Shown here: in pieces, positions 11,681 to 23,068 of the stretch
Layout: each line of letters opens with the position of its first letter
How positions within the stretch are numbered: the stretch's first letter is position 1
Assembly: GCF_000204015.1 (NCBI RefSeq)
Contig: NZ_GL883077.1
Span: 1,232,171 to 1,268,146, forward strand
From: Asticcacaulis biprosthecium C19
GTDB taxonomy: Bacteria > Pseudomonadota > Alphaproteobacteria > Caulobacterales > Caulobacteraceae
Length of the DNA stretch: 35,976 bases
Reading direction: 5' to 3'
Program-made: the position numbers and the translations under genes
The notes under the pieces: generated by a model
Database searches by the model: none
What the model saw: only the letters and a program-made list of their open reading frames with translations
What the model was told of the DNA's origin: nothing

Positions 11681-12066
<386 letters not shown>

Positions 12067-12171
12067 ATCAAATTCGTTGTCCTGACTTTGCGTGTTGGTT
12101 CCGCGACCGAAGGCCCCGCGGCGGATGCCGTTACCGTCGCAACCGCCGCTCTTGACGCAGGCGTAAGCCGG

Positions 12172-12198
12172 GCGCAGTCTCCCACGTTTGGGAGGCGC
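12172..12198 (+). promoter_or_regulatory. hairpin covering the permease Shine-Dalgarno
   Basis: CTCCCA (12179-12184), loop CGTT, TGGGAG (12189-12194) form a 6-bp stem. GCGC on each side (12172-12175 and 12195-12198) can extend it with a 3-base bulge. The Shine-Dalgarno GGGAGG (12190-12195) is on the 3' arm, 5 bases before ATG 12201, so folding would block ribosome binding. This could be a simple translational control element. A TTGACG at 12152-12157 lies upstream; if it is the promoter -35, transcription would start near or inside the hairpin and the element might not form. Confidence 0.4.
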
Positions 12199-12200
12199 GT

Positions 12201-13544
12201 ATGGACTCAGCGAAAAAAGTTGGCCTGTGGGACATCGTCCTTTATGCCGTCGCCATGAATTTTGGCATCCGCTGGCTGGCTGTCGGTGCCGCGACAGGGC
12301 CCGTCGCCATTCCCATCTGGATCCTTGCCGCCATCCTGTTCCTGGTGCCCTTGTCCCTGGCCACAATGGCGCTGTCGGAGAAATTTCCCGGTGAAGGCGC
12401 CATCTATGCCTGGACGCGCGAGACCATGGGGCCGTTCGCCGGATTTCTGTGCGGCTGGATCTATTGGGCGTGCAACCTGCCCTTCTTTGCCTCGCTGATC
12501 GTCTTCGTCATTAATCTGGCCGCCGGGGTTATCGGTGGCGATGTCGCGGCGGCGTTGCGGCACCCGGCCGGCGCCCTGGCTGCAACCGCGGTCATCGTTG
12601 TCGTCATGGCGTTCACCCACGCCCGCGGCATCGGCACCGGCAAGTGGATTTCCAGCATTGGCGCCGTGGTGTCGATCATCCTGGCCCTGTTTATCATTGG
12701 CGCCGGCTTCCGCCTGGCCGGCGTTCAGGGCTCGGCCACCGATTTCGCCACTGCCGACTACCTGCCGAAACTGGACGCCAATGCCGCCGTGCTGTGGGCA
12801 ACCATGGTCTTCGCCTATGGTGGCGCGGAAGGCGTCGCCCTGTTGCGCAACGAGGCCAAAGGCGGAGCGCGGACCATTGTCACCGCCCTGATTATGGTCG
12901 GGGCCGGCCTGACCGTGGCCTATGTGTTGGGCACGGCCGGCATGCTGATGATCCTGCCTCAGGCGGAAGCTTCGGCTCTGGGCGGCTTGCCCGATGCGCT
13001 GGGCGTGGCGGCACAGAAGCTGGGCGTGGCCAATCTGGGCCCGTGGCTGGTTGGTGGGCTGGCGATCGTGATGCTGGGCGGGCTCAATGCCTGGTTTGGT
13101 GTGGCAGCGCGGTTGCCCTTCGCCGTCGGTATCGACAACATGCTGCCCGCCGTCATCGGTCGGCGAGATCCCAAGACCGGCGCGCCGTATGTCGCGATCT
13201 TGCTGCAGGCGTTTCTGGTCATTGTCATCACTGCCCTGACCCAGGTGGGCGTCGATAGCCTCAATAAGCTCTATGGCCTGATCCAGGCCATGTCGACCCT
13301 GACCTATACTTTGCCATTCCTGTTCCTTTTTGCCGCCTGGTGGAAGGCCGATGCGCGGCCATGGGCACGGTGGACGGCTGTGCTTGGTTTCCTGGTGGCG
13401 CTCAGCGGCGTCTTGTGCAGCCTGGTGCCGGGTGCGGGAACGACTGTTGCCGATGTCCTGAAACTGGCCGGGTCGGGCGCCGTCCTGGTGGTGTCGGGCT
13501 GCATCATCTATCTGGCTTACCTCCTGCGAAAGAAAGCGTCATGA
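12201..13544 (+). CDS. APC-family amino acid/amine permease
   Basis: A 447-residue integral membrane protein with about 12 hydrophobic helices and the features of the amino acid-polyamine-organocation superfamily: a broken first helix (LWDIVLYAVAMNFGIRWLAVGAATG), PGEGAIYAWTRETMGPFAGFLCGWIYW between helices 2 and 3, and FAYGGAEGVALLRNEAKGG after helix 6. It imports an amino acid or amine; the substrate cannot be read from sequence. Its stop overlaps the start of the Rieske oxygenase (ATGA, 13541-13544), so uptake and oxidation of the same compound is a reasonable inference. Start ATG 12201 has GGGAGG at an ideal distance. Confidence 0.88.
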   Translation: MDSAKKVGLWDIVLYAVAMNFGIRWLAVGAATGPVAIPIWILAAILFLVPLSLATMALSEKFPGEGAIYAWTRETMGPFAGFLCGWIYWACNLPFFASLIVFVINLAAGVIGGDVAAALRHPAGALAATAVIVVVMAFTHARGIGTGKWISSIGAVVSIILALFIIGAGFRLAGVQGSATDFATADYLPKLDANAAVLWATMVFAYGGAEGVALLRNEAKGGARTIVTALIMVGAGLTVAYVLGTAGMLMILPQAEASALGGLPDALGVAAQKLGVANLGPWLVGGLAIVMLGGLNAWFGVAARLPFAVGIDNMLPAVIGRRDPKTGAPYVAILLQAFLVIVITALTQVGVDSLNKLYGLIQAMSTLTYTLPFLFLFAAWWKADARPWARWTAVLGFLVALSGVLCSLVPGAGTTVADVLKLAGSGAVLVVSGCIIYLAYLLRKKAS

Positions 13545-14575
13545 GTCACGACACGGCCCCCAAGCTCAGTGCTATCGTCACTGCGCCGGCCGATTGGTAT
13601 GTCGATCCCGCTCTGTGGCAGGTCGAACGGCGCAAGGTCTTCGCCGGCAACTGGCAATTCCTATGTCACGAAAGCGATGTCGAAGCGCCGCGGCAATGGC
13701 GTGCCGATGTCCTGGCCGGCTACCCAGTGGTCGCCGTGCGTGGCGATGACGGCGTGTTGCGCGGCTTCCACAATGTCTGCCGCCACCGTGCCGGTCCACT
13801 GGTCAAGGACGAGGCCGGCGTCTGCGATGGTCATCTGACCTGCGAATACCATGGCTGGAAGTACATGCTGGACGGCCGGCTGCGCATGGCGCGGGACTTC
13901 GGCGCGGCCTCCGATTTCGACCCGCGCGAGTACGGTCTGTTCCCCATCCGCCTGGCCGTGTGGCGCGGCCTGGTCTTTGCCGGCCTGAACGAGGTTCTGC
14001 CGGACCTGGACGAAGAGCTGAAGCCGCTGGACGCGCGGCTGGGTGTGCTCGACTGGTCGGGCTTTCGGGTGGGGTTGCGCCGTTCGCACCTGCTGGACTG
14101 CAACTGGAAGACCTATGTCGAGAACTATCTCGAAGGCTATCACGTGCCCAATGTCCATCCGAGCCTCGATGCCGAGATCCTGTCGGACCAGTACAAGGTG
14201 ACGGTTGACGGCAAGGTGGCGCTGCACGAGGTGCCGCCGCGGTCGCAGGATGCGGTCTATGATGGCGTCTGGGCGTGGCTGTGGCCCAATGTCGCCATCA
14301 ATGTCTATCAGCGCGGCCTGATGATCGAGCGCATGTCGCCGGTTGGTCACGACAACACGCGGCTGGACTATACCTATTTGACGCCGGGCGGAGAAAAGGT
14401 GGCCGCCGAGACGCTGGCCATGTCCGATCAGGTGACGGCCGAGGACAAATGGATCGCCGAAAGGGTCCAGGAAAACCTGAATGCCGGGGTTTATCGGACG
14501 GGGCGGTTGTCGCCGAAGCACGAGATTGCCGTGGCGGCATTCCAGACCTGGGTGAGGGATGCATTGGAGATTTAA
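13541..14575 (+). CDS. Rieske non-heme iron oxygenase, alpha subunit
   Basis: A 344-residue ring-hydroxylating-type oxygenase. The Rieske [2Fe-2S] ligands are Cys80-X-His82 (CRHRAG) and Cys101-X2-His104 (CEYHGWKY). The mononuclear iron site has His201 and His206 (ENYLEGYHVPNVHP) and probably Asp302 (AEDKWIAERVQ). The short length, NWKTYVENYLEGYH and the C-terminal VQENLNAG...GRLSP..E...FQTWV are closer to choline/carnitine/betaine monooxygenase-type members than to aromatic dioxygenases. ATG 13541 overlaps the permease stop; earlier in-frame codons lie inside the permease and are rejected. No reductase or ferredoxin gene is adjacent, so electrons must come from elsewhere. The substrate is unknown; a quaternary amine or amino acid derivative is an inference. 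Confidence 0.9.
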   Translation: MSHDTAPKLSAIVTAPADWYVDPALWQVERRKVFAGNWQFLCHESDVEAPRQWRADVLAGYPVVAVRGDDGVLRGFHNVCRHRAGPLVKDEAGVCDGHLTCEYHGWKYMLDGRLRMARDFGAASDFDPREYGLFPIRLAVWRGLVFAGLNEVLPDLDEELKPLDARLGVLDWSGFRVGLRRSHLLDCNWKTYVENYLEGYHVPNVHPSLDAEILSDQYKVTVDGKVALHEVPPRSQDAVYDGVWAWLWPNVAINVYQRGLMIERMSPVGHDNTRLDYTYLTPGGEKVAAETLAMSDQVTAEDKWIAERVQENLNAGVYRTGRLSPKHEIAVAAFQTWVRDALEI

Positions 14576-14604
14576 CTTATCGTATGGTGATTGACGGCTA
14601 AGAA

Positions 14605-14690
14605 GACCCCTCCGTCTCGACGCGTTTCGCCCCGTAGGGGGCTCACTTGCTCGCCACCTCCCCATCTTCGATAGGGAGGAGAAGAAAGAA
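14605..14690 (+). repeat. palindromic intergenic repeat, copy 1
   Basis: A C-rich block (CCCCTCC...CCCCGTAGGGGG) leads into GCTCACTTGCTCGCCA and a hairpin: CCTCCC (14657-14662), ATC-TTC-GAT, GGGAGG (14674-14679), followed by AGAAGAAAGAA. The same order, GCTCgCTTGCTCaCCA then CTCCCCATCTTC..ATGGGAGGAGAAGgAAGAA, recurs at 34263-34330. It is a dispersed REP-like element rather than a gene. It may also act as a terminator after the Rieske gene, but no U-tract follows. Confidence 0.65.
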
Positions 14691-14794
14691 CAGGTGCCGC
14701 GCTTATGAAGACGTCATAAAACCTACACCGGTCTGGTAAAAACCCGACACAAAACCCGGTCATCAGGGACTTCCCAATTCTCGAGGAGGCTCCC

Positions 14795-17233
14795 GTGTCC
14801 GAACATCATCTTACTGGCCGTCATGACGACGGCGATATCCAGCTCAACACCTCGGCCAATCCCAGCCTGAACGATATGATCGCCGAACGGGGTTCGCGCC
14901 GGCAGATCCTGGGCGGCATGGCCTCGGTGGCCGCCCTGTTCGGTCTCAGCGCCTGCGGCAACGATAAGAGCGACTATAAGGTCGGGGCACCGATCCTGGC
15001 GGGATCGTCGGGCGCCTCGTCCTCGGGCCGCGTGGTCACCCTGACCGGCGTCCCGGGTGAGGCCACCGATCCGAAGTGGACTCAGGTCTCCGGCCCCGCG
15101 GTCACCCTGACCACGGTCGATGCCGTTACGGCGACCTTCGTGGCGCCGTCGGTCTTTACCGCTACCGACCTTGTTTTCGCCTTCTCGGGGACCCGCAACG
15201 GCGCGGCCGTCAGCCAAGCCACCGTTCTGACCGTCAGCCCGGCCCAGCTCGGTTTCCCCGCCATCGCCAAGAACCGTGACGACGTCGTCACCGTGCCGGA
15301 AGGCTACAAGGTCACGGTGCTGTACCGGATGGGCGATCCGATCCTGGCCGGCGTTGCGGCCTTCGCCAACAACGGGACGGACACGAACTTTGCAGGGCGC
15401 GCCGGCGATCACCACGACGGCATGGCCTATTTCGGCCTGAACGCCGGCGGAACGCGTGATGATTTAAGCTCGGTGCGCGGCCTGCTGGTCATGAACCACG
15501 AGAACATCACCGACCAGTACCTGCACACTTCGGGCCCGACCTCGGCCGGCGGCGTCCGTCCGGAAGCCGAAGCCATCAAGGAAATCGAAGCCCACGGCGT
15601 CAGTGTCGTCGAAGTCGTCCAGACTGGCGGCGCCTGGACCTACGTCCAGGGCAGTGCCTTCAACCGCCGGGTCACGCCGAACACACCGACGACCTTGCGC
15701 GGGCCTGTGCGCGGCGACGCCCTGGTGAAGACGGCCTATTCCACCGACGGCACGGCCGGCCGCGGCACGGTCAACAACTGCGCCAACGGCTATAGCGCCT
15801 GGGGAACCTATCTGACCTGCGAGGAAAACTGGGCCGGTTATTTCCGTCGCGCCGCCGGTGACAATGCCGCGCGCACGGCCAAGGAGGTCACCGCGCTGGG
15901 ACGTTATGGTCTCTCGGCCGGCGCCGGTGGGGCCGGCAACTGGGCCTCGGTGACGGCGGCCAATGCGGCTGACCAGTCGCTGTTCTCCAAGTGGAACCTC
16001 ACGGTGACCGCGGCCGACGCGACGGGCGATTACCGCAACGAAGCCAACCAGTATGGCTGGGTCGTCGAAATCGATCCGTACAATCCGGCCGCGACGCCGC
16101 GCAAGCGCACGGCTTTGGGCCGCATGGGCCACGAAGGCGCCTGGCCGGCCCCGTTCGTCGCCGGCCGCAAGCCGGTCTTCTATATGGGTGACGATTCGCG
16201 CGGCGAATATTTCTACAAGTTCGTCTCCGCAACCGCGTGGAGCGAGGCCGACGCCACGGCGACCGACCGCCTGGCCATCGGCGACAAATATCTCGACAAC
16301 GGCACCCTCTATGTCGCGCGTTTCGACGCCACCGGCCAGGGCGTGTGGTTGCCGCTGACCTTCGGCACCGGCCCGCTAACCGCTGCCAATGCCGCCTACG
16401 CTTTCGCCAGCCAGGCCGACGTCCTGGTCAATGCCCGTCTGGCCGCCGACGCCCTGGGCGCCACCAAGATGGACCGTCCGGAATGGGCCGCCGTCAATCC
16501 GGCCAATGGCGAGGTCTACCTGACCCTGACCAACAACAACGCGTCCTTACGTCCGCTGAATGGCACCAATGCCGCCAATCCGCGCCACTATAACGATCCG
16601 AAGGGGGCTGCGAACCAGTTCGGCAACCCCAATGGCCACATCATCCGTCTCCACGAAGCCGGCGACACCCCGGAAGCGACCAGCTTCCAGTGGGACATCT
16701 ACGCCTTTGGCGCCGGTTCCGACCTGGATGCTGCGATCAATGTCTCGGGCCTGACCGCTGACAACGACTTCTCCAGCCCCGACGGCCTGTGGTTCTCGCG
16801 TGCGTCCAGCCCTGCCGGCAAGGTCAATCCGCTGCTGTGGATCCAGACCGACGACGGCGCCTTTACCGATGTGACCAACAATCAAATGCTGGCGGCCATG
16901 CCGGGCAAAGTCGGCGACGGGGGTGCGAAGACCATCACCAACACCGGCGCAGGTGGCGCCACGGCTACGCAGGCGACCTTCGTCGGCAAGGCGCCGGGTC
17001 TGCAATTGCGCCGCTTCCTGGTCGGTCCGAAGGAATGCGAGATCACCGGTATCGACTCGACGCCGGACGGCCGCACCCTGTTCGTCAACATCCAGCATCC
17101 GGGTGAAGCTGGTACCGCCGCGGCACCGTCGTCCAACTGGCCGGCCAGCCAGTCGGGCGCGGCGGCCGGTTCGCGTCCGCGGTCGGCTACGATCGTGGTC
17201 ACCAAGAACGACGGTGGCGTGGTCGCGCTGTAA
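14795..17233 (+). CDS. phoX: PhoX-family alkaline phosphatase, Tat-exported lipoprotein
   Basis: An 812-residue protein of the PhoX (DUF839) family, secreted Ca/Fe-dependent phosphatases that release phosphate from esters. A twin-arginine signal (SRRQILGG, about residue 35) is followed by a lipobox-like LSAC (about 52-55). Residues 60-150 form a beta-rich, Ig/PKD-like insert (TQVSGPAVTLTTVDAVTATF). Typical PhoX blocks follow: DHHDGMAYFGL, LLVMNHEN (near 235), HEGAWPAPF, YMGDDSRGEYFYKF (near 466), RPEWAAVNPANGEVYLTLTN, SPDGLWFS, LLWIQTDDG and the late GPKECEITGIDSTPDGRTLF. The start is GTG 14795 with a strong GAGGAGG at 14783-14789. It is monocistronic. No convincing Pho box was found upstream. 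Confidence 0.88.
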   Translation: MSEHHLTGRHDDGDIQLNTSANPSLNDMIAERGSRRQILGGMASVAALFGLSACGNDKSDYKVGAPILAGSSGASSSGRVVTLTGVPGEATDPKWTQVSGPAVTLTTVDAVTATFVAPSVFTATDLVFAFSGTRNGAAVSQATVLTVSPAQLGFPAIAKNRDDVVTVPEGYKVTVLYRMGDPILAGVAAFANNGTDTNFAGRAGDHHDGMAYFGLNAGGTRDDLSSVRGLLVMNHENITDQYLHTSGPTSAGGVRPEAEAIKEIEAHGVSVVEVVQTGGAWTYVQGSAFNRRVTPNTPTTLRGPVRGDALVKTAYSTDGTAGRGTVNNCANGYSAWGTYLTCEENWAGYFRRAAGDNAARTAKEVTALGRYGLSAGAGGAGNWASVTAANAADQSLFSKWNLTVTAADATGDYRNEANQYGWVVEIDPYNPAATPRKRTALGRMGHEGAWPAPFVAGRKPVFYMGDDSRGEYFYKFVSATAWSEADATATDRLAIGDKYLDNGTLYVARFDATGQGVWLPLTFGTGPLTAANAAYAFASQADVLVNARLAADALGATKMDRPEWAAVNPANGEVYLTLTNNNASLRPLNGTNAANPRHYNDPKGAANQFGNPNGHIIRLHEAGDTPEATSFQWDIYAFGAGSDLDAAINVSGLTADNDFSSPDGLWFSRASSPAGKVNPLLWIQTDDGAFTDVTNNQMLAAMPGKVGDGGAKTITNTGAGGATATQATFVGKAPGLQLRRFLVGPKECEITGIDSTPDGRTLFVNIQHPGEAGTAAAPSSNWPASQSGAAAGSRPRSATIVVTKNDGGVVAL

Positions 17234-17336
17234 GGCGCAAGTTCTGACGTCTCCAATGCCGATGGTCGTGGCCTGTTCTCCATTATGGGAGGGCAGGTCA
17301 CGGGTCGTCGGCATTTTGCGTTTTCGGGCCCTATAG

Positions 17337-17546
17337 CGGCCGCTCGACCTCGGCCGCAACGACCGCGCCCAGCCTCTGGCCGCCTGGATAGCCGAAGACA
17401 GCATCGGCGCGCTGATCGACGAATACTTGGGCGTGCGCAACCCGTTGAGCCATCCTGAAATCCGTGATGATCCGAGGCTAAAAATTCCTGTCCATCGAAT
17501 CCAACGGACACTCTGTTTCAGGATGGTTGTGAAGCCGGGTGGATAG
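17337..17546 (+). pseudogene. decayed coding remnant
   Basis: A 69-codon open stretch ends at TAG 17544-17546 and is closed upstream by TAG 17334-17336. It has no good start codon. The translated text is protein-like in its first two thirds (LGRNDRAQPLAAWIAEDSIG, then ALIDEYLGVRNPLSHPEIRD), with normal codon bias for this genome, and turns into unlikely sequence afterwards. I read it as a fragment of a formerly longer gene. The family is not recognised. Confidence 0.35.
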
Positions 17547-17581
17547 CCGGACGTATCTTGAAGAGGGGAGCCACAGATCAT

Positions 17582-17618
17582 CACGGATGCCGCTTCGCGG
17601 ACACGGATCGACACGGAT
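17582..17618 (+). repeat. phased CACGGAT repeats
   Basis: CACGGAT occurs at 17582, 17602 and 17612, that is, in 10-base register, with a small CCGC-TTC-GCGG palindrome (17590-17600) in the skipped position. Related 10-base phased GGAA/ACGGA repeats occur in the other large noncoding stretch at 31903-32170. The function is unknown. Confidence 0.5.
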
Positions 17619-17846
17619 TTCATTGTGGGAGAGCCGGTCGCTCGAAATCACCCCGATCTCAGGGCGTTGCTATCGCGCGACGTCGATGAAGCTGACATTT
17701 CATCCCCAGCCATCGCGGTAAAATCCGGGATGGATCCCCACCGTTTGCAGAAAATTAATAAAAATCAGACTTTTGTCGCCAATTCCTGAGTATTTTTGCG
17801 CATATGTTCTATGTATGTTCCTGTTATTGCTGTCCTTTCTTCTTCA

Positions 17847-17902
17847 GAATCCGGTTTAAGTGTGGCCTAGAGTCATTGCGTCCCATTTAATCCCATGTTA
17901 AC
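17847..17902 (+). promoter_or_regulatory. mraZ/dcw control region: GANTC sites, CtrA box, MraZ-type repeats
   Basis: Three kinds of site are packed here. GAATC (17847-17851) and GAGTC (17870-17874) are GANTC sites, the target of the CcrM methyltransferase. TTAA-TCCCATG-TTAAC (17887-17902) is a perfect CtrA consensus. TCCCA at 17881-17885 and 17891-17895 are direct repeats with a 5-base spacer; read on the other strand they are TGGGA-N5-TGGGA, the arrangement described for MraZ operators in E. coli. The second TCCCA lies in the CtrA spacer, so CtrA and MraZ would compete. Binding by either is inferred, not shown. Confidence 0.6.
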
Positions 17903-17968
17903 TCTAAGGGGTGGTGCGGCGCTTCGGCCCCGTCCAGGCTGGGACTTTTACGGGGCCAATGACATTTC

Positions 17969-17990
17969 AGGGAGCGGGCTGATAAGCCCG
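17969..17990 (+). promoter_or_regulatory. Shine-Dalgarno plus hairpin before mraZ
   Basis: AGGGAG (17969-17974) is directly followed by a perfect hairpin, CGGGCT-GATA-AGCCCG (17975-17990), then GC and the GTG start (17993). The linear distance from Shine-Dalgarno to start is about 18 bases, too long. If the hairpin folds, the effective distance becomes 2 bases to GTG 17993 or 8 bases to TTG 17999. Such a hairpin could set translation of MraZ. Confidence 0.45.
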
Positions 17991-17992
17991 GC

Positions 17993-18460
17993 GTGGGCTT
18001 GTTTCTCTCGAGTCACGAGAAGCAATTGGATGGTAAGCGTCGCCTGCTGGTGCCGTCGGACTATCGCGCCTCTGCGCTTCAGCCCCATGAGGGTGTCGAT
18101 CCTTTTGAGGGCGTCTACTGTTTCGCCGCCATCAACGCGCCCTGCCTCGAATGCGGTGGTGCCGCCTTTTTCGCCACCTACCGCGATGTGATCGACGAAT
18201 ACCCAAAGCTGTCGCCGACCCGCGCCGCCCTGCAACGCCGCTTCTATGCCTCGATGAACCGTCTGGGCTTCGATACCGCTGGCCGTATCACTCTGCCCGA
18301 AAAGCTATGCGATCAGTTCAACCTCTCCGGTGACGTCGTCCTGGCCGGCCTTGGCGAGTCCTTCCAGATCTGGGAGCCGAGCGCCTATGAGGCCTGGGCC
18401 GCCGAGCAGGACAAGCTGGTCGAGGACGCCTTCGCCAAGCGGGAGGTGTTGTATCAATGA
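17993..18460 (+). CDS. mraZ: MraZ transcriptional regulator
   Basis: A 155-residue protein with two SpoVT-AbrB-like MraZ domains, the first gene of most dcw clusters and a repressor of its own operon in E. coli. Visible marks are FLSSHEKQLDGKRRLLVPSDYR at the start and LGFDTAGRITLPEKL in the second half, both carrying the D-x-x-x-R pattern. The annotated start is GTG 17993. TTG 17999 would give MFLSSHEKQLD, closer to the family N-terminus, and is a real alternative; there is no ATG in a suitable place. The last bases overlap rsmH (ATGA). Confidence 0.95.
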   Translation: MGLFLSSHEKQLDGKRRLLVPSDYRASALQPHEGVDPFEGVYCFAAINAPCLECGGAAFFATYRDVIDEYPKLSPTRAALQRRFYASMNRLGFDTAGRITLPEKLCDQFNLSGDVVLAGLGESFQIWEPSAYEAWAAEQDKLVEDAFAKREVLYQ

Positions 18461-19410
18461 CCGAAGCCGCCGCCCACCTGTCCGTCCTGTTGCCCGAGGT
18501 GCTAACCGTACTTGGTAACCTTGAGGACAAGCTGATTGTCGATGGCACCTTTGGCGCCGGCGGTTATTCGCGCGCCTTCCTGCTGGGTGGCGCTCGTGTC
18601 GTGGCCTTCGATCGCGATGCCCGCGTGCGGCCCTTTGTCGAGGCGCTAAGCCAGGAATTTCCCGACCGCTTCCAGTGGGTCAATCGTTGCTTTTCCGAAA
18701 TGGCCGAGGGTTTGGCTGAGCTCGGACACGCCTCTTGCGACGCTATCGTACTCGATATCGGCGTATCGTCGATGCAGCTCGACGAGGCCGATCGCGGCTT
18801 TTCCTTCATGCGCGACGGGCCGCTGGACATGCGGATGAGCGTCGATGGGCGCTCCGCTGCCGATATCGTCAATGATGACGACAAGGACGATATCGCCCAC
18901 GTCATCTGGCTGTACGGTGAAGAACACAAGTCGCGCAGTATCGCTTCGGCCATTGTCCGCCGCCGCGAAGCCCAGCCGTTTGAACGCACCCTGGACCTCG
19001 CCGAGGTTGTCGAACGCGCCCTGGGCGGGCGACGTGGCGCGCCGGTCCATCCGGCGACGCGGACCTTCCAGGCCTTGCGCATAGCGGTGAATGACGAGCT
19101 GGGCGAACTGGAACGCGCACTTGAAGTGGCCGAAATCCTGCTCAGGCCCGATGGCGTGCTCGCCGTGGTTACCTTCCACTCGCTCGAAGATCGTATTGTT
19201 AAGAACTTCTTTAACGACCGCTCCGGTAAGATGGCCGGCGGGTCGCGTCATGCGCCACAGAAATTGGCAACGCGCACACCCGTCTACACCCTCATTACCC
19301 CCAAGGCGGTCCAGGCATCGGAAGCTGAAATCGCCGGCAATCCGCGTTCGCGGTCGGCCAAGCTGCGTGCTGTGCGCAGGAACCGCGCCCCCGCAGGAGT
19401 TGTGTCATGA
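18457..19410 (+). CDS. rsmH: 16S rRNA (cytosine-1402-N4)-methyltransferase RsmH
   Basis: A 317-residue methyltransferase that adds the N4 methyl group to C1402 of 16S rRNA. Family motifs: HLSVLLPEVL at the start, the AdoMet loop VDGTFGAGGYSRAFL (about residues 28-42), DIGVSSMQLDEADRGFSFM, GPLDMRM, HPATRTFQALRIAVNDEL and VVTFHSLEDRIVKNFF. The length is normal for the family. It starts with ATG 18457, overlapping the mraZ stop, and its stop overlaps ftsL in the same way. Confidence 0.98.
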   Translation: MTEAAAHLSVLLPEVLTVLGNLEDKLIVDGTFGAGGYSRAFLLGGARVVAFDRDARVRPFVEALSQEFPDRFQWVNRCFSEMAEGLAELGHASCDAIVLDIGVSSMQLDEADRGFSFMRDGPLDMRMSVDGRSAADIVNDDDKDDIAHVIWLYGEEHKSRSIASAIVRRREAQPFERTLDLAEVVERALGGRRGAPVHPATRTFQALRIAVNDELGELERALEVAEILLRPDGVLAVVTFHSLEDRIVKNFFNDRSGKMAGGSRHAPQKLATRTPVYTLITPKAVQASEAEIAGNPRSRSAKLRAVRRNRAPAGVVS

Positions 19411-19850
19411 ATGCCGTCCTTCGTCTGTTCGAACAACGCGTTCGCGGCATCCGTCTGATCGAACTGGTCGGTATCGTCCTGGCGCTCGGTATGATCTTCT
19501 GGGTCTGTCTGTCGAAGGCGCGCGAGGGCGAAGACATCCGCCGGATGAACGAACTCGACGCCCAGATCGCTGCCGAGCAGGGCGCCGTCCAGACCCTGAA
19601 GATCAAAGTCGCCCAGTTAGAAAAGCCGTCACGCCTTGAAGCTCTGGCCAAGCAATATCTCGGCATGCAGCCGATCTCCGCGGCGCATGAGGCCGATATC
19701 GATTCCTTGAGCGAAATCTCGCGCGCCACCTCGCGTCCCGTCACCAGCCCTGTGCCGCTCGCGCCTGAGCCGCCGGCTGCGCCGGCTGCGGCCGATGCGC
19801 CGGCCGAACCCGAACTGATCACCACGGCCAAACCGACAGGAGACCATTGA
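19407..19850 (+). CDS. ftsL: cell division protein FtsL
   Basis: A 147-residue bitopic protein: a short cytoplasmic N-terminus, one membrane helix at about residues 19-38 (IELVGIVLALGMIFWVCL), a periplasmic coiled-coil segment (RRMNELDAQIAAEQGAVQTL) and the PSRLEALAKQYLGM motif seen in alphaproteobacterial FtsL. A Pro/Ala-rich tail follows. FtsL forms a complex with FtsB and FtsQ and helps activate FtsW-FtsI at the septum. The identification relies on position between rsmH and ftsI as well as on topology. Confidence 0.92.
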   Translation: MNAVLRLFEQRVRGIRLIELVGIVLALGMIFWVCLSKAREGEDIRRMNELDAQIAAEQGAVQTLKIKVAQLEKPSRLEALAKQYLGMQPISAAHEADIDSLSEISRATSRPVTSPVPLAPEPPAAPAAADAPAEPELITTAKPTGDH

Positions 19851-21604
19851 TGCGGGTCTCGCTGTTCGAAACGACTCAATCGGGCTTTCAATGGGTGGCC
19901 GACCGCGTCTGGAAGGTTGAGCACGCCTTCGAACGCGCCAATGCCTCCAACAAGAAGGCGACCTCGACGCGGATGCGCATCTTCGCCGTCCTGTGCGGCC
20001 TGGGCTTCGCCTATGCCATCCTGATGCTGTTCGCGGCCCGCGCCTCCCTGTCTGGCTCGCCTGGCAATATGGCCGCCCTGAGCGGTGAGCCCAATGCCCG
20101 GGCGCAACTGGTCGACCGCAACGGCCAGCTTCTGGCCACCGATGTTAACGATTACAGCCTGTTCGTCGACCCCACCGACATGACCTCGGAAGACCGCGGC
20201 ATGGTTCGCCAGGCCCTGATGCAGATCTTCCCCAACCTGCCGCGCGAGGATATCGCCAAGGTATTCGGCAGCGGCAAGCGCATGCTGCTGACCAACAATC
20301 TGAAGGCCATCGAACGTGAACGTATTCTCAACTACGGCTTGCCAGGCATCAGCTTCGAAGCCCAGCTGGTGCGTGACTATCCGCTGGGTGAAACGGGTGC
20401 CGCCTATATCGGCATGACCAAGCGTGGCGGCGAAGGTATGTCCGGTGCCGAGATGGCGCTTCAGGACGAGATCAAGCAGGCCGCGCTGAACAATATGCCG
20501 GTCGCCCTGGCCATGGACCTGCGCGTCCAGGGGGCGTTGGAAAACGAGCTGCGCGCCGTGGCGATCGACCAGCGTGCCGAAGACGCCATCGGCATCGTCA
20601 CCAATGTCCGCACCGGCGAAATCATCGCCATGGCGTCGTGGCCAGAATTCGACCTTAACAAGCCGGGCGCCTACACCGAACAGGCCAAGCGCAATCACGC
20701 CGCCGTCGACCGCTACGAGCTGGGTTCGATCTTCAAGGCGATCTCGGTCGGCATCGGCCTCGACACCGGCACCGCCTCGATGAACTCGGTCTACGACGCC
20801 CGCCAGCCCCTGGTGATCAGCGGCCGCAAGATCCACGACGACCACGCCGTCAACGCTTTCATCGGTCTGGAAGACGTGTTCATCAAATCATCCAACATCG
20901 GCACGGGGCATCTGGCCATGACGGCCGGCGCCGGCAACTTTACCCGCTATTACGAAGCCCTGGGCCTGTTCCGCTCGGCCGATACCGAACTGACCGAGCC
21001 AGCGGCGCCGCTGTACCCGAAGAAGTGGACCGATCTGTCCCTGGTCCAGACCGCCTTTGGCCAGGGCATGGCCATCACCCCCCTGAGCTTCGCTGAAGCC
21101 ATCGGTGGCCTGCTGAACGGCGGTTACCGCCGGCCCCTGACCATCAAGAAGTATGACGGCACCTCGCCGATCGCCGGCACGCGCGTCTTTTCGGCCGCGA
21201 CCTCGCGCACCATGCTGGACCTGATGCGCGCCAATGTCATCAAGGGCACCGGCTCGCGCGCCAATGCCCCCGGGCTGCGGGTCGGTGGCAAGACCGGCAC
21301 GGCGCAGAAGCCGGAAAATGGCCGTTACGGCAGCAACCGCATCTCGTCCTTCGCCGCCGTCTTCCCGACGGATGGTCCGCTGGACGGCGATCGATATCTG
21401 GTTCTGGTTATCTTCGACTCGCCGCAAGGTGGGCCGTCCAGCAGTGGTTTGAAAACGGGCGGCTTCGTCGCCGCCCCGGTTGCCGGTCGCGTGATTGACC
21501 GGGTAGCGCCCTTCCTCGGCGTACAACGAAAAGAGGACAAGTTCACCTCGGCACAGTGGGACAAGGCCCCCGTCGCGCCGGAAGATGCAACAGGGGAAGA
21601 GTAA
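19850..21604 (+). CDS. ftsI: peptidoglycan transpeptidase FtsI (PBP3)
   Basis: A 584-residue class B penicillin-binding protein, the septal cross-linking enzyme. A membrane helix at about residues 45-65 is followed by the pedestal domain (ARAQLVDRNGQLLATDV) and the transpeptidase domain with the serine motif Ser293-IFK (YELGSIFKAI), SxN (Ser347-Ser-Asn349) and Lys481-Thr-Gly (GGKTGTAQKP). YELGS replaces the frequent YEPGS. I start at ATG 19850, which has AGGAGA (19838-19843) at the right distance and overlaps the ftsL stop; the TTG three bases earlier is less likely. The stop is directly followed by murE. Confidence 0.97.
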   Translation: MRVSLFETTQSGFQWVADRVWKVEHAFERANASNKKATSTRMRIFAVLCGLGFAYAILMLFAARASLSGSPGNMAALSGEPNARAQLVDRNGQLLATDVNDYSLFVDPTDMTSEDRGMVRQALMQIFPNLPREDIAKVFGSGKRMLLTNNLKAIERERILNYGLPGISFEAQLVRDYPLGETGAAYIGMTKRGGEGMSGAEMALQDEIKQAALNNMPVALAMDLRVQGALENELRAVAIDQRAEDAIGIVTNVRTGEIIAMASWPEFDLNKPGAYTEQAKRNHAAVDRYELGSIFKAISVGIGLDTGTASMNSVYDARQPLVISGRKIHDDHAVNAFIGLEDVFIKSSNIGTGHLAMTAGAGNFTRYYEALGLFRSADTELTEPAAPLYPKKWTDLSLVQTAFGQGMAITPLSFAEAIGGLLNGGYRRPLTIKKYDGTSPIAGTRVFSAATSRTMLDLMRANVIKGTGSRANAPGLRVGGKTGTAQKPENGRYGSNRISSFAAVFPTDGPLDGDRYLVLVIFDSPQGGPSSSGLKTGGFVAAPVAGRVIDRVAPFLGVQRKEDKFTSAQWDKAPVAPEDATGEE

Positions 21605-23068
21605 ATGAGTACAGTGCGTTTGTCGGATATCCTGCGTCGGGACCTGGATCATGATCCATTCGTTACCGGGGTCACCGCGGACAGCCGCAAGGTCGATAAG
21701 GGCACGCTGTTTTGCGCCTTGCCGGGCACGGCTATCGACGGGCGGGACTTTATTCCCCAGGCCCTGGCCAAGGGGGCGGCTGCGGTTCTGGCGCCGGACG
21801 ATACGGCGGCTTTGGAGTCCCCGGACTCGCTTCTGGTCAAGGTGTCGGACGTCCGCCGGGCTTACGCCCTGGCCGCCAAGGCCTTCTACGGTTCGCAGCC
21901 CAAGATCTGCGTCGCCGTGACCGGCACTAACGGAAAAACCAGCGTCGCCACCTTCTGCCGCCAGATCTTTTCGACCCTGGGCAAAAAGTCGGCCAGCATG
22001 GGCACGCTGGGTGTCGTCAAGTCCGACATCGACGGCACCGAGACGGCAGTGACCGGACCGGGCCTGACCACGCCGGATGCTGCCGACATGGCGCGCCACC
22101 TGTCCGAACTGGCCGCCGACGGCGTCACCCACCTGGCCTTGGAAGCGTCGTCGCACGGTATCGACCAGCGCCGCCTGGACGGCGTCTCGCTGACCGCAGC
22201 CGGCTTTACCAACCTGACCCAGGACCATCTCGACTATCACGCCACCATGGAGGCCTACAGGTGCGCCAAACTGCGCCTTTTCGAAAGCCTGTTGCCGCGC
22301 GGCCGTACCGCCGTGCTCAACGCCGATTCCGACGCCTATAACAGCTTTGCCGCCATGTGCGTCCTGTCGGGGACCAGCGTCATGAGTGTTGGCGAACGCG
22401 GGCGTGGCCTGGCCATGGTCGGGCGCGACTTGACGGTGGACGGCCAGATCCTGTTCATCGAACACCAGGGCCGCAAGTACGAGACCAAGCTGCCCCTGGC
22501 CGGTCTGTTCCAGGCGTCGAACGCCCTGGTCGCAGCGGGCCTGTGTATCGCGGCCGGCGAGGACCCCGGCGCCGTCATCCATGCCCTGTCGCTGTTGAAG
22601 GGCGCGCGTGGACGGTTGGAACGCGTCGGGGCCAAGCGCAACGCCGCCGAGGTTTATGTCGATTATGCCCACACGCCCGATGGCCTGGAGACGGTGCTGA
22701 AGGCGCTGCGTCCGCACACCCAGGGCAAGCTGGTTGTGGTGTTCGGCTGTGGCGGCGACCGTGACAAGGGCAAGCGTCCACAGATGGGCGCCATTGCCGC
22801 CCGTCTGGCTGACCGCGCCATCGTCACCGATGACAATCCGCGCAGCGAAGACCCCGCCACCATCCGCGCCGAGGTTCTGGCCGGCATGTCGTCGGAGACA
22901 GTGGAAATCGGTGATCGTAAGAAAGCCATTCTGGAAGCCGTGTCGGGCTTGAAGACTGGCGATGTCCTGGTGGTGGCCGGCAAGGGTCATGAACAGGGCC
23001 AGATCATCGGCGACAAGGTGCTGCCGTTCGACGACGTAGCGGTGGTTCAGCAGGCTTTGAAAGTATGA
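21605..23068 (+). CDS. murE: UDP-MurNAc-L-Ala-D-Glu:meso-diaminopimelate ligase
   Basis: A 487-residue Mur ligase that adds meso-diaminopimelate to the UDP-MurNAc dipeptide. The P-loop GTNGKT is at 107-112; other marks are GLTTPDAADM, LEASSHGIDQRRL, the YRCAKLRLF lysine expected to be carbamylated, VYVDYAHTPDGLE and DNPR (410-413), the motif that selects meso-diaminopimelate over lysine. The ATG follows the ftsI TAA without gap. In Caulobacter-like dcw clusters murF comes next; here a lipoprotein gene overlaps the murE stop instead. Confidence 0.98.
   Translation: MSTVRLSDILRRDLDHDPFVTGVTADSRKVDKGTLFCALPGTAIDGRDFIPQALAKGAAAVLAPDDTAALESPDSLLVKVSDVRRAYALAAKAFYGSQPKICVAVTGTNGKTSVATFCRQIFSTLGKKSASMGTLGVVKSDIDGTETAVTGPGLTTPDAADMARHLSELAADGVTHLALEASSHGIDQRRLDGVSLTAAGFTNLTQDHLDYHATMEAYRCAKLRLFESLLPRGRTAVLNADSDAYNSFAAMCVLSGTSVMSVGERGRGLAMVGRDLTVDGQILFIEHQGRKYETKLPLAGLFQASNALVAAGLCIAAGEDPGAVIHALSLLKGARGRLERVGAKRNAAEVYVDYAHTPDGLETVLKALRPHTQGKLVVVFGCGGDRDKGKRPQMGAIAARLADRAIVTDDNPRSEDPATIRAEVLAGMSSETVEIGDRKKAILEAVSGLKTGDVLVVAGKGHEQGQIIGDKVLPFDDVAVVQQALKV

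Follow-up and report, generated by a model that had tools for sequence, protein, structure and literature searches.

What governs transcription of the dcw cluster, whose genes are central to cell division and the cell wall, in Asticcacaulis biprosthecium C19, and which regulators meet in front of its leading gene, mraZ? Several motifs lie upstream of mraZ in the 35,976-nucleotide stretch of DNA analysed here (the window), and we read positions 17804-17905 as the control region of an mraZ-led dcw operon. This region would combine a promoter repressed by MraZ itself, a probably repressing site for CtrA, the master cell-cycle regulator, and an SOS input. We put the probability of this reading at about 0.6. 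What was observed is that the motifs are present, how they are spaced and how far relatives keep them; binding, the positions of both promoters and the directions of the effects are deduced from this. If the reading is true, growth, cell cycle and DNA damage would be joined at one compact point. The motifs set before the dcw cluster by the first-pass annotation, a CtrA box and MraZ-type repeats among them, were found in place; conservation in relatives is broad for the repeats and partial for the CtrA box. That annotation missed a LexA box and a predicted promoter within the repeat array.

The mraZ locus and the genome sets

mraZ lies on the plus strand at 17993..18460, as identified by Pfam (PF02381, E 3.1e-15) and by alignments. 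The gene starts at GTG 17993 or TTG 17999, probably at the latter, which aligns with the GTG of most relatives. Downstream on the same strand, the dcw block (18457..23068) consists of mraW (18457-19410), an ftsL-like ORF (19407-19850), ftsI (19847-21604) and murE (21605-23068). The names mraW, ftsI and murE come from Pfam domains and gene order; the ftsL-like ORF has no Pfam match and is named by position only. Upstream, rnpB occupies 11684-12067 and is separated from mraZ by other genes. The interval (12068-17992) measures about 5.9 kb here and contains phoX, recognized by Pfam, together with genes that by eye resemble those for a Rieske oxygenase and an amino-acid permease.

The alignment of the mraZ leader revealed a probable ribosome-binding site, AGGGAG, at 17969..17974 on the plus strand. 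A 6-bp stem-loop (17975..17990, plus strand) lies between this site and the start codon. In Asticcacaulis, its pairing was found in 93.5 percent of cells, as compared with at most 50.5 percent when the stem was slid. Two pairs were changed on both sides, a count reached by 132 of 500 shuffles. The RNA fold of the leader showed nothing notable (z = −0.93), and an Rfam search at the mraZ promoter gave no match.

Conservation was followed at the level of genus, family, order and class. The Asticcacaulis set contained 24 of 25 genomes. It did not include G014, which falls on two contigs (L025, L027), the second fragments L026 and L028, or the named loci L029-L031; two of these three named loci repeat genomes present elsewhere in the set. 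Alignment A1 covered 20 of these 24 genomes. In Caulobacteraceae, mraZ was found in 114 of the 119 genomes searched. The family set comprised 98 regions from 22 genera, made up of the 24 Asticcacaulis regions and 74 of the 98 non-Asticcacaulis matches, picked to cover all genera. Strict anchoring on the operator kept 96 of the 98 regions; the other two, L052 and L065, have decayed operators. For the order set, 45 of 81 non-family mraZ matches were taken from four other families, and 39 were anchored for the CtrA register. The class set was drawn as 30 loci from 100 mraZ-positive genomes and reduced to 29 by dropping L232, a family member; 18 were anchored for the CtrA register. Distances in the class loci are rough, several start codons being wrongly assigned, and rnpB was recognized there by eye. 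All conservation counts were made without a tree, and genomes within a family are not independent.

The proposed MraZ operator and the predicted promoter

A pair of TCCCA motifs separated by five bases (17881-17895; TGGGA-N5-TGGGA on the minus strand) had been proposed as MraZ-type repeats. The pair is present, and it is the only exact copy in the window, where 0.11 copies are expected by chance and a copy turned up in 11 of 100 shuffles. When a single mismatch is tolerated, the pattern is no rarer than expected at random, one copy being seen versus 2.57 expected in the window. Genome-wide, it showed no enrichment (3+3 copies versus 4+4 for the reversed control). The evidence for the pair therefore resides in its position and conservation, and not in its number.

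Phased TCCC repeats were found in all 24 Asticcacaulis mraZ upstream regions, and an operator block with the consensus GTGTCATTGtATCCCAnTTnATCCCATGTTAACCCA in 96 of the 98 Caulobacteraceae regions, across 22 genera. The proposed operator thus held, but not as a site of two copies; this form was rejected, the relatives revealing about four phased units. In A. biprosthecium, the array spans 17872..17905, with TGGGA on the minus strand. Its predicted units lie at 17872 (GTCA, decayed), 17882 (CCCA), 17892 (CCCA) and 17902 (CTCT, decayed), in a 10-bp phase. Among the 96 anchored family regions, repeat 2 is CCCA in 91 and repeat 3 has CCC in all. Repeat 4 has CCC in 88 regions and reads CTCT in the A. 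biprosthecium window, while repeat 1 takes the form nTCA in 82 and CCCA in 9. All four units are intact CCCA in six of the nine regions of genus g3, as well as in L094 and L095, which identifies GTGTCA/GAGTCA as a decayed repeat. Beyond the family, same-strand in-phase CCCA units were read from match lists for 40 of the 45 regions of the order and for 25 of the 29 loci of the class.

An MraZ operator is defined by at least three direct repeats with a TGGG core and a 10-bp period, located upstream of mraZ. Against the three-repeat definition, this genome has repeats 2 and 3 intact and repeats 1 and 4 decayed. The operator is conserved ahead of mraZ in the family, the order and the class, and the identification of the array as an MraZ operator is strongly supported by the sequence comparison.

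As Eraso et al. reportedly found in 2014, the mraZ promoter of E. coli is repressed by MraZ. The E. coli K-12 sequence, which we read directly, has three GTGGG repeats in the sense orientation, between −44 and −20 relative to the mraZ start codon. The Asticcacaulis array is similar in its TGGG-core repeats, its 10-bp period and its position just upstream of mraZ. It differs in that the repeats are antisense and the predicted −35 and −10 elements lie inside the array; to our knowledge, repeat strand is not a defining feature of MraZ operators. For mollicutes, the accessible text of PMC8475190 gives the MraZ sites as direct repeats of AAAGTG[T/G]. A direct-repeat operator at the mraZ promoter, with MraZ as the repressor, would be common to both systems, whereas the repeat sequence differs and the mollicute description (PMC8475190) has no CtrA or LexA layer.

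The position of the promoter, PmraZ, was suggested by the relatives. Four regions of family f5 (L197, L200, L202 and L206) carry, by eye, TTGACG 17 bases before NTATCC. In L222, L223 and L238, all from the class set, repeat 1 is continuous with TTGACG, giving CCCATTGACGCCCA. Since TTGACG and NTATCC of the relatives fall within the array, the core of PmraZ appears to lie inside the MraZ operator. In A. biprosthecium, the predicted −35 is TTGCGT (17876..17881, plus strand; TTGACG in some relatives), chosen by eye. The predicted extended −10 is TGTTAACT (17896..17903, plus strand; TGnTATCC in relatives), placed with the help of the order and class regions. Repeats 1 and 2 would flank the −35, and repeats 3 and 4 the −10. 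A transcription start around 17908-17912 is a guess. A sigma70 consensus and terminator scan found nothing, and gave no promoter in 17600-18050. MraZ on the array should block RNA polymerase and would in this way repress its own mraZ-led dcw operon.

The LexA-type box upstream of the array

A candidate LexA (SOS) box, ATGTTCTATGTATGTTC, was recognized at 17804..17820 on the plus strand, with the core GTTC-N7-GTTC at 17806-17820. The Caulobacter LexA consensus is given as (T/A)TGTTC-N6-TGTTC in PMC13384398 and as GTTCN7GTTC in PMC12700426. The site fits both forms, and the stricter (T/A)TGTTC-N6-TGTTC occurs in 31 of the 98 family regions. LexA-type boxes are also present upstream of the lexA and recA genes of A. 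biprosthecium C19 itself. In the window, GTTC-N7-GTTC is about as frequent as chance predicts (2 seen versus 1.09 expected), and it exceeds its reversed control about twofold genome-wide (97+93 versus 48+43), partly through one repeated element. The box is unremarkable in the window alone, so it is conservation that carries the case for LexA.

Within the 120 bases before the operator, an exact GTTC-N7-GTTC was found in 78 of the 98 family regions. Other permutations of the half-site reached at most 10 of these regions, other spacings from 3 to 12 at most 4, and the box before the operator was found in 0.4 percent of shuffles. Among the matches listed, box and operator occur together in 306 of the 390 family genomes, which represent 18 of the 22 genera; the genome count is somewhat high, some matches lying away from mraZ. 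The reversed-pattern control gave four genomes, by eye, among the matches listed. In genera g2, g9, g12 and g16, the box was found neither in the 98 family regions nor among the matches listed.

Outside the family, the box was present in 9 of 14 regions of f4, 8 of 15 of f5, 1 of 4 of f3 and 1 of 12 of f2. At the class level, the form on the other strand, GAAC-N7-GAAC, was found in 9 of 29 loci and GTTC-N7-GTTC in one; the 11 other permutations of GAAC were found in none. A class-wide search for the LexA box pattern matched 58 of 290 genomes, versus 9 of 290 with a match to the reversed control. The match stood beside mraZ, by eye, in 19 of the 23 matching genomes that were also searched for mraZ. 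The site thus agrees with an alphaproteobacterial LexA box in its fit to the consensus and in its conservation before mraZ, the latter extending outside the family in part.

Measured from start to start, the LexA box and repeat 2 are 71-87 bp apart in Asticcacaulis. In most regions of 11 of the 18 box-bearing genera, the box–operator distance is nearly fixed at 96-98 bp, and the intervening sequence is poorly conserved. The end of the box is 55 bp from the predicted −35 here and about 75 bp from it in the genera with the 97-bp spacing. This is too far for blocking PmraZ directly, so a second, upstream promoter is required. Through the LexA box, this second mraZ promoter would respond to DNA damage. 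MraZ would increase upon SOS induction and would then turn down PmraZ. In agrobacteria, mraZ is among the ortholog groups with secondary transcription starts, according to the accessible text of PMC10469942, which would fit two promoters. In Corynebacterium, mraZ mRNA is described as falling under ciprofloxacin (PMC5055667), and we count this against our reading.

One direct precedent for a link between LexA and mraZ was found. The accessible part of PMC3998124 predicts a LexA-controlled mraZ in a human gut SOS meta-regulon and gives EMSA binding with B. subtilis LexA. There, as here, mraZ is placed under SOS control; the site in PMC3998124 is bound by a Gram-positive LexA, whereas ours is of the alphaproteobacterial GTTC-N7-GTTC type and extends over most of a family. 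A literature search of limited depth, covering partial texts, found no LexA–mraZ link in alphaproteobacteria.

The GTTC-N7-GTTC box could instead serve another transcript, either a small RNA or a divergent gene, and not be a LexA operator for mraZ. Consistent with this, the sigma70 scan of 17600-18050 found no upstream promoter near the box, and the word mraZ is absent, gene tables apart, from the accessible text of the Caulobacter SOS papers PMC12700426 and PMC13384398. In addition, a divergent ORF that could own the box lies upstream of mraZ in the Asticcacaulis loci L012, L016, L020 and L023. However, in 7 of the 10 relatives' loci scanned, rnpB is the neighbour upstream and shares the strand of mraZ, though it is about 1.1 kb away in L012, and the box recurs ahead of mraZ outside Caulobacteraceae. 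We consider a separate transcript unlikely, and an SOS input to mraZ is our preferred reading.

This input can tentatively be extended, at somewhat short of even odds, to an old alphaproteobacterial DNA-damage input to the whole division cluster. In such a scheme, the upstream promoter would be controlled by LexA, damage-made MraZ would shut PmraZ, and the CtrA site would have been written in later by Caulobacteraceae. If true, a transcriptional division brake would exist beside SidA-type inhibitors. The mraZ control region as a whole makes the purpose of MraZ and the SOS route to the alphaproteobacterial division genes directly testable in Caulobacter crescentus. As a further observation, a DnaA-box-like TGTGGATA stands immediately after the LexA box in some genera (L037, L061, L089 and L091); anywhere upstream of the operator, it was found in 19 of 96 family regions.

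The CtrA box and the GANTC sites

The CtrA consensus is TTAA-N7-TTAAC. The perfect match claimed at 17887..17902 on the plus strand, TTAATCCCATGTTAAC, was borne out with zero mismatches. It is the only exact TTAA-N7-TTAAC in the window, where 0.01 is expected by chance and 1 of 100 shuffles has one. The box lies over MraZ repeats 3-4 and the predicted −10. Among the 96 family regions, the exact form occurs in 11, all of them Asticcacaulis (11 of 24; L001-L011). This group was defined by its TTAA, and its members are also the genomes whose MraZ shares 72 percent identity or more with the query.

With the register set by repeat 3 and at most one mismatch of nine allowed, a near-CtrA box was found in 63 of the 96 anchored Caulobacteraceae regions. 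These are all 11 regions of L001-L011 (every one exact), 12 of the 13 other Asticcacaulis and 40 of the 72 other Caulobacteraceae. At least one genome has the near match in 15 of the 22 genera; the seven genera without it include some with one region. Outside Caulobacteraceae, it was found in none of the 39 sister-family and none of the 18 class anchored regions, where nTATC usually stands in place of the TTAAC that most Caulobacteraceae carry. The CtrA box was rejected as the main cause of the conservation, the near match being confined to Caulobacteraceae. What remains of the original claim is a gain in this family, with the exact form restricted to part of one genus and with GTTAAC open to another explanation as well.

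The distribution looks like a CtrA site gained over an older MraZ operator in Caulobacteraceae; CtrA is a probable but lineage-specific part of the control. Substitutions in the family would have turned the −10 segment into GTTAAC and provided TTnA seven bases upstream, creating a CtrA box on top of the −10. Activation by CtrA can occur from a box lying over a −35, and Caulobacter has promoters that CtrA represses via a box in the promoter. The predicted box resembles the latter in covering core promoter elements, and it differs from them in being made from MraZ operator sequence. Since the −10 would lie under the box, we favour repression. CtrA~P would act mainly as a repressor of PmraZ and compete with MraZ; the two sites overlap, which predicts mutual exclusion. 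The accessible text of PMC12421884 describes Caulobacter mraZ and ftsL as rising when CckA function is lost, which repression by CtrA would predict. In S. meliloti, mraZ is listed among genes with CtrA motifs (PMC3616915). A different regulator, CenR, was located at mraZ in Rhodobacter by ChIP (PMC9275681), which we count against our reading.

It is also conceivable that the MraZ operator-promoter alone is functional and the CtrA match is a by-product. The GTTAAC half-site would then be explained by the predicted −10 together with the margin of the final MraZ repeat, and the TTAA by one substitution in some Asticcacaulis. Operator and promoter do account for most of the conserved bases, and only 11 of the 24 Asticcacaulis, with no other family region, combine an exact TTAA half with TTAAC. 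On the other hand, TTAAC and TTnA are common in Caulobacteraceae and were not seen together elsewhere (at most one mismatch in 63 of 96 regions versus 0 of 57 outside), and mraZ rises when CckA is lost (PMC12421884). A pure by-product therefore seems doubtful, and we prefer a CtrA site that probably represses. Activation of PmraZ by CtrA through a box near the −35, with MraZ competing, has a precedent in activation from boxes overlying that element, but it is very improbable here: in the layout of the relatives the box covers the −10 and not the −35, and mraZ and ftsL go up without CckA (PMC12421884).

Two GANTC sites had been taken to add a methylation input, and both are present. Promoters of the GcrA/CcrM type have a conserved GANTC at their core. 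GAGTC at 17870..17874 overlaps the decayed first MraZ repeat, immediately ahead of the predicted −35, and is conserved in 24 of 24 Asticcacaulis. At the same position, the other Caulobacteraceae have GTGTC in 50 of 72 regions and GAGTC in 9. GAATC at 17847..17851 is not conserved, and the idea of a conserved methylation site there was rejected: of the 24 Asticcacaulis, 11 have any GANTC in the interval 25-60 bp before repeat 3. A methylation input would be genus-level at most. In the window as a whole, GANTC is under-represented, with 58 sites seen versus 149 expected.
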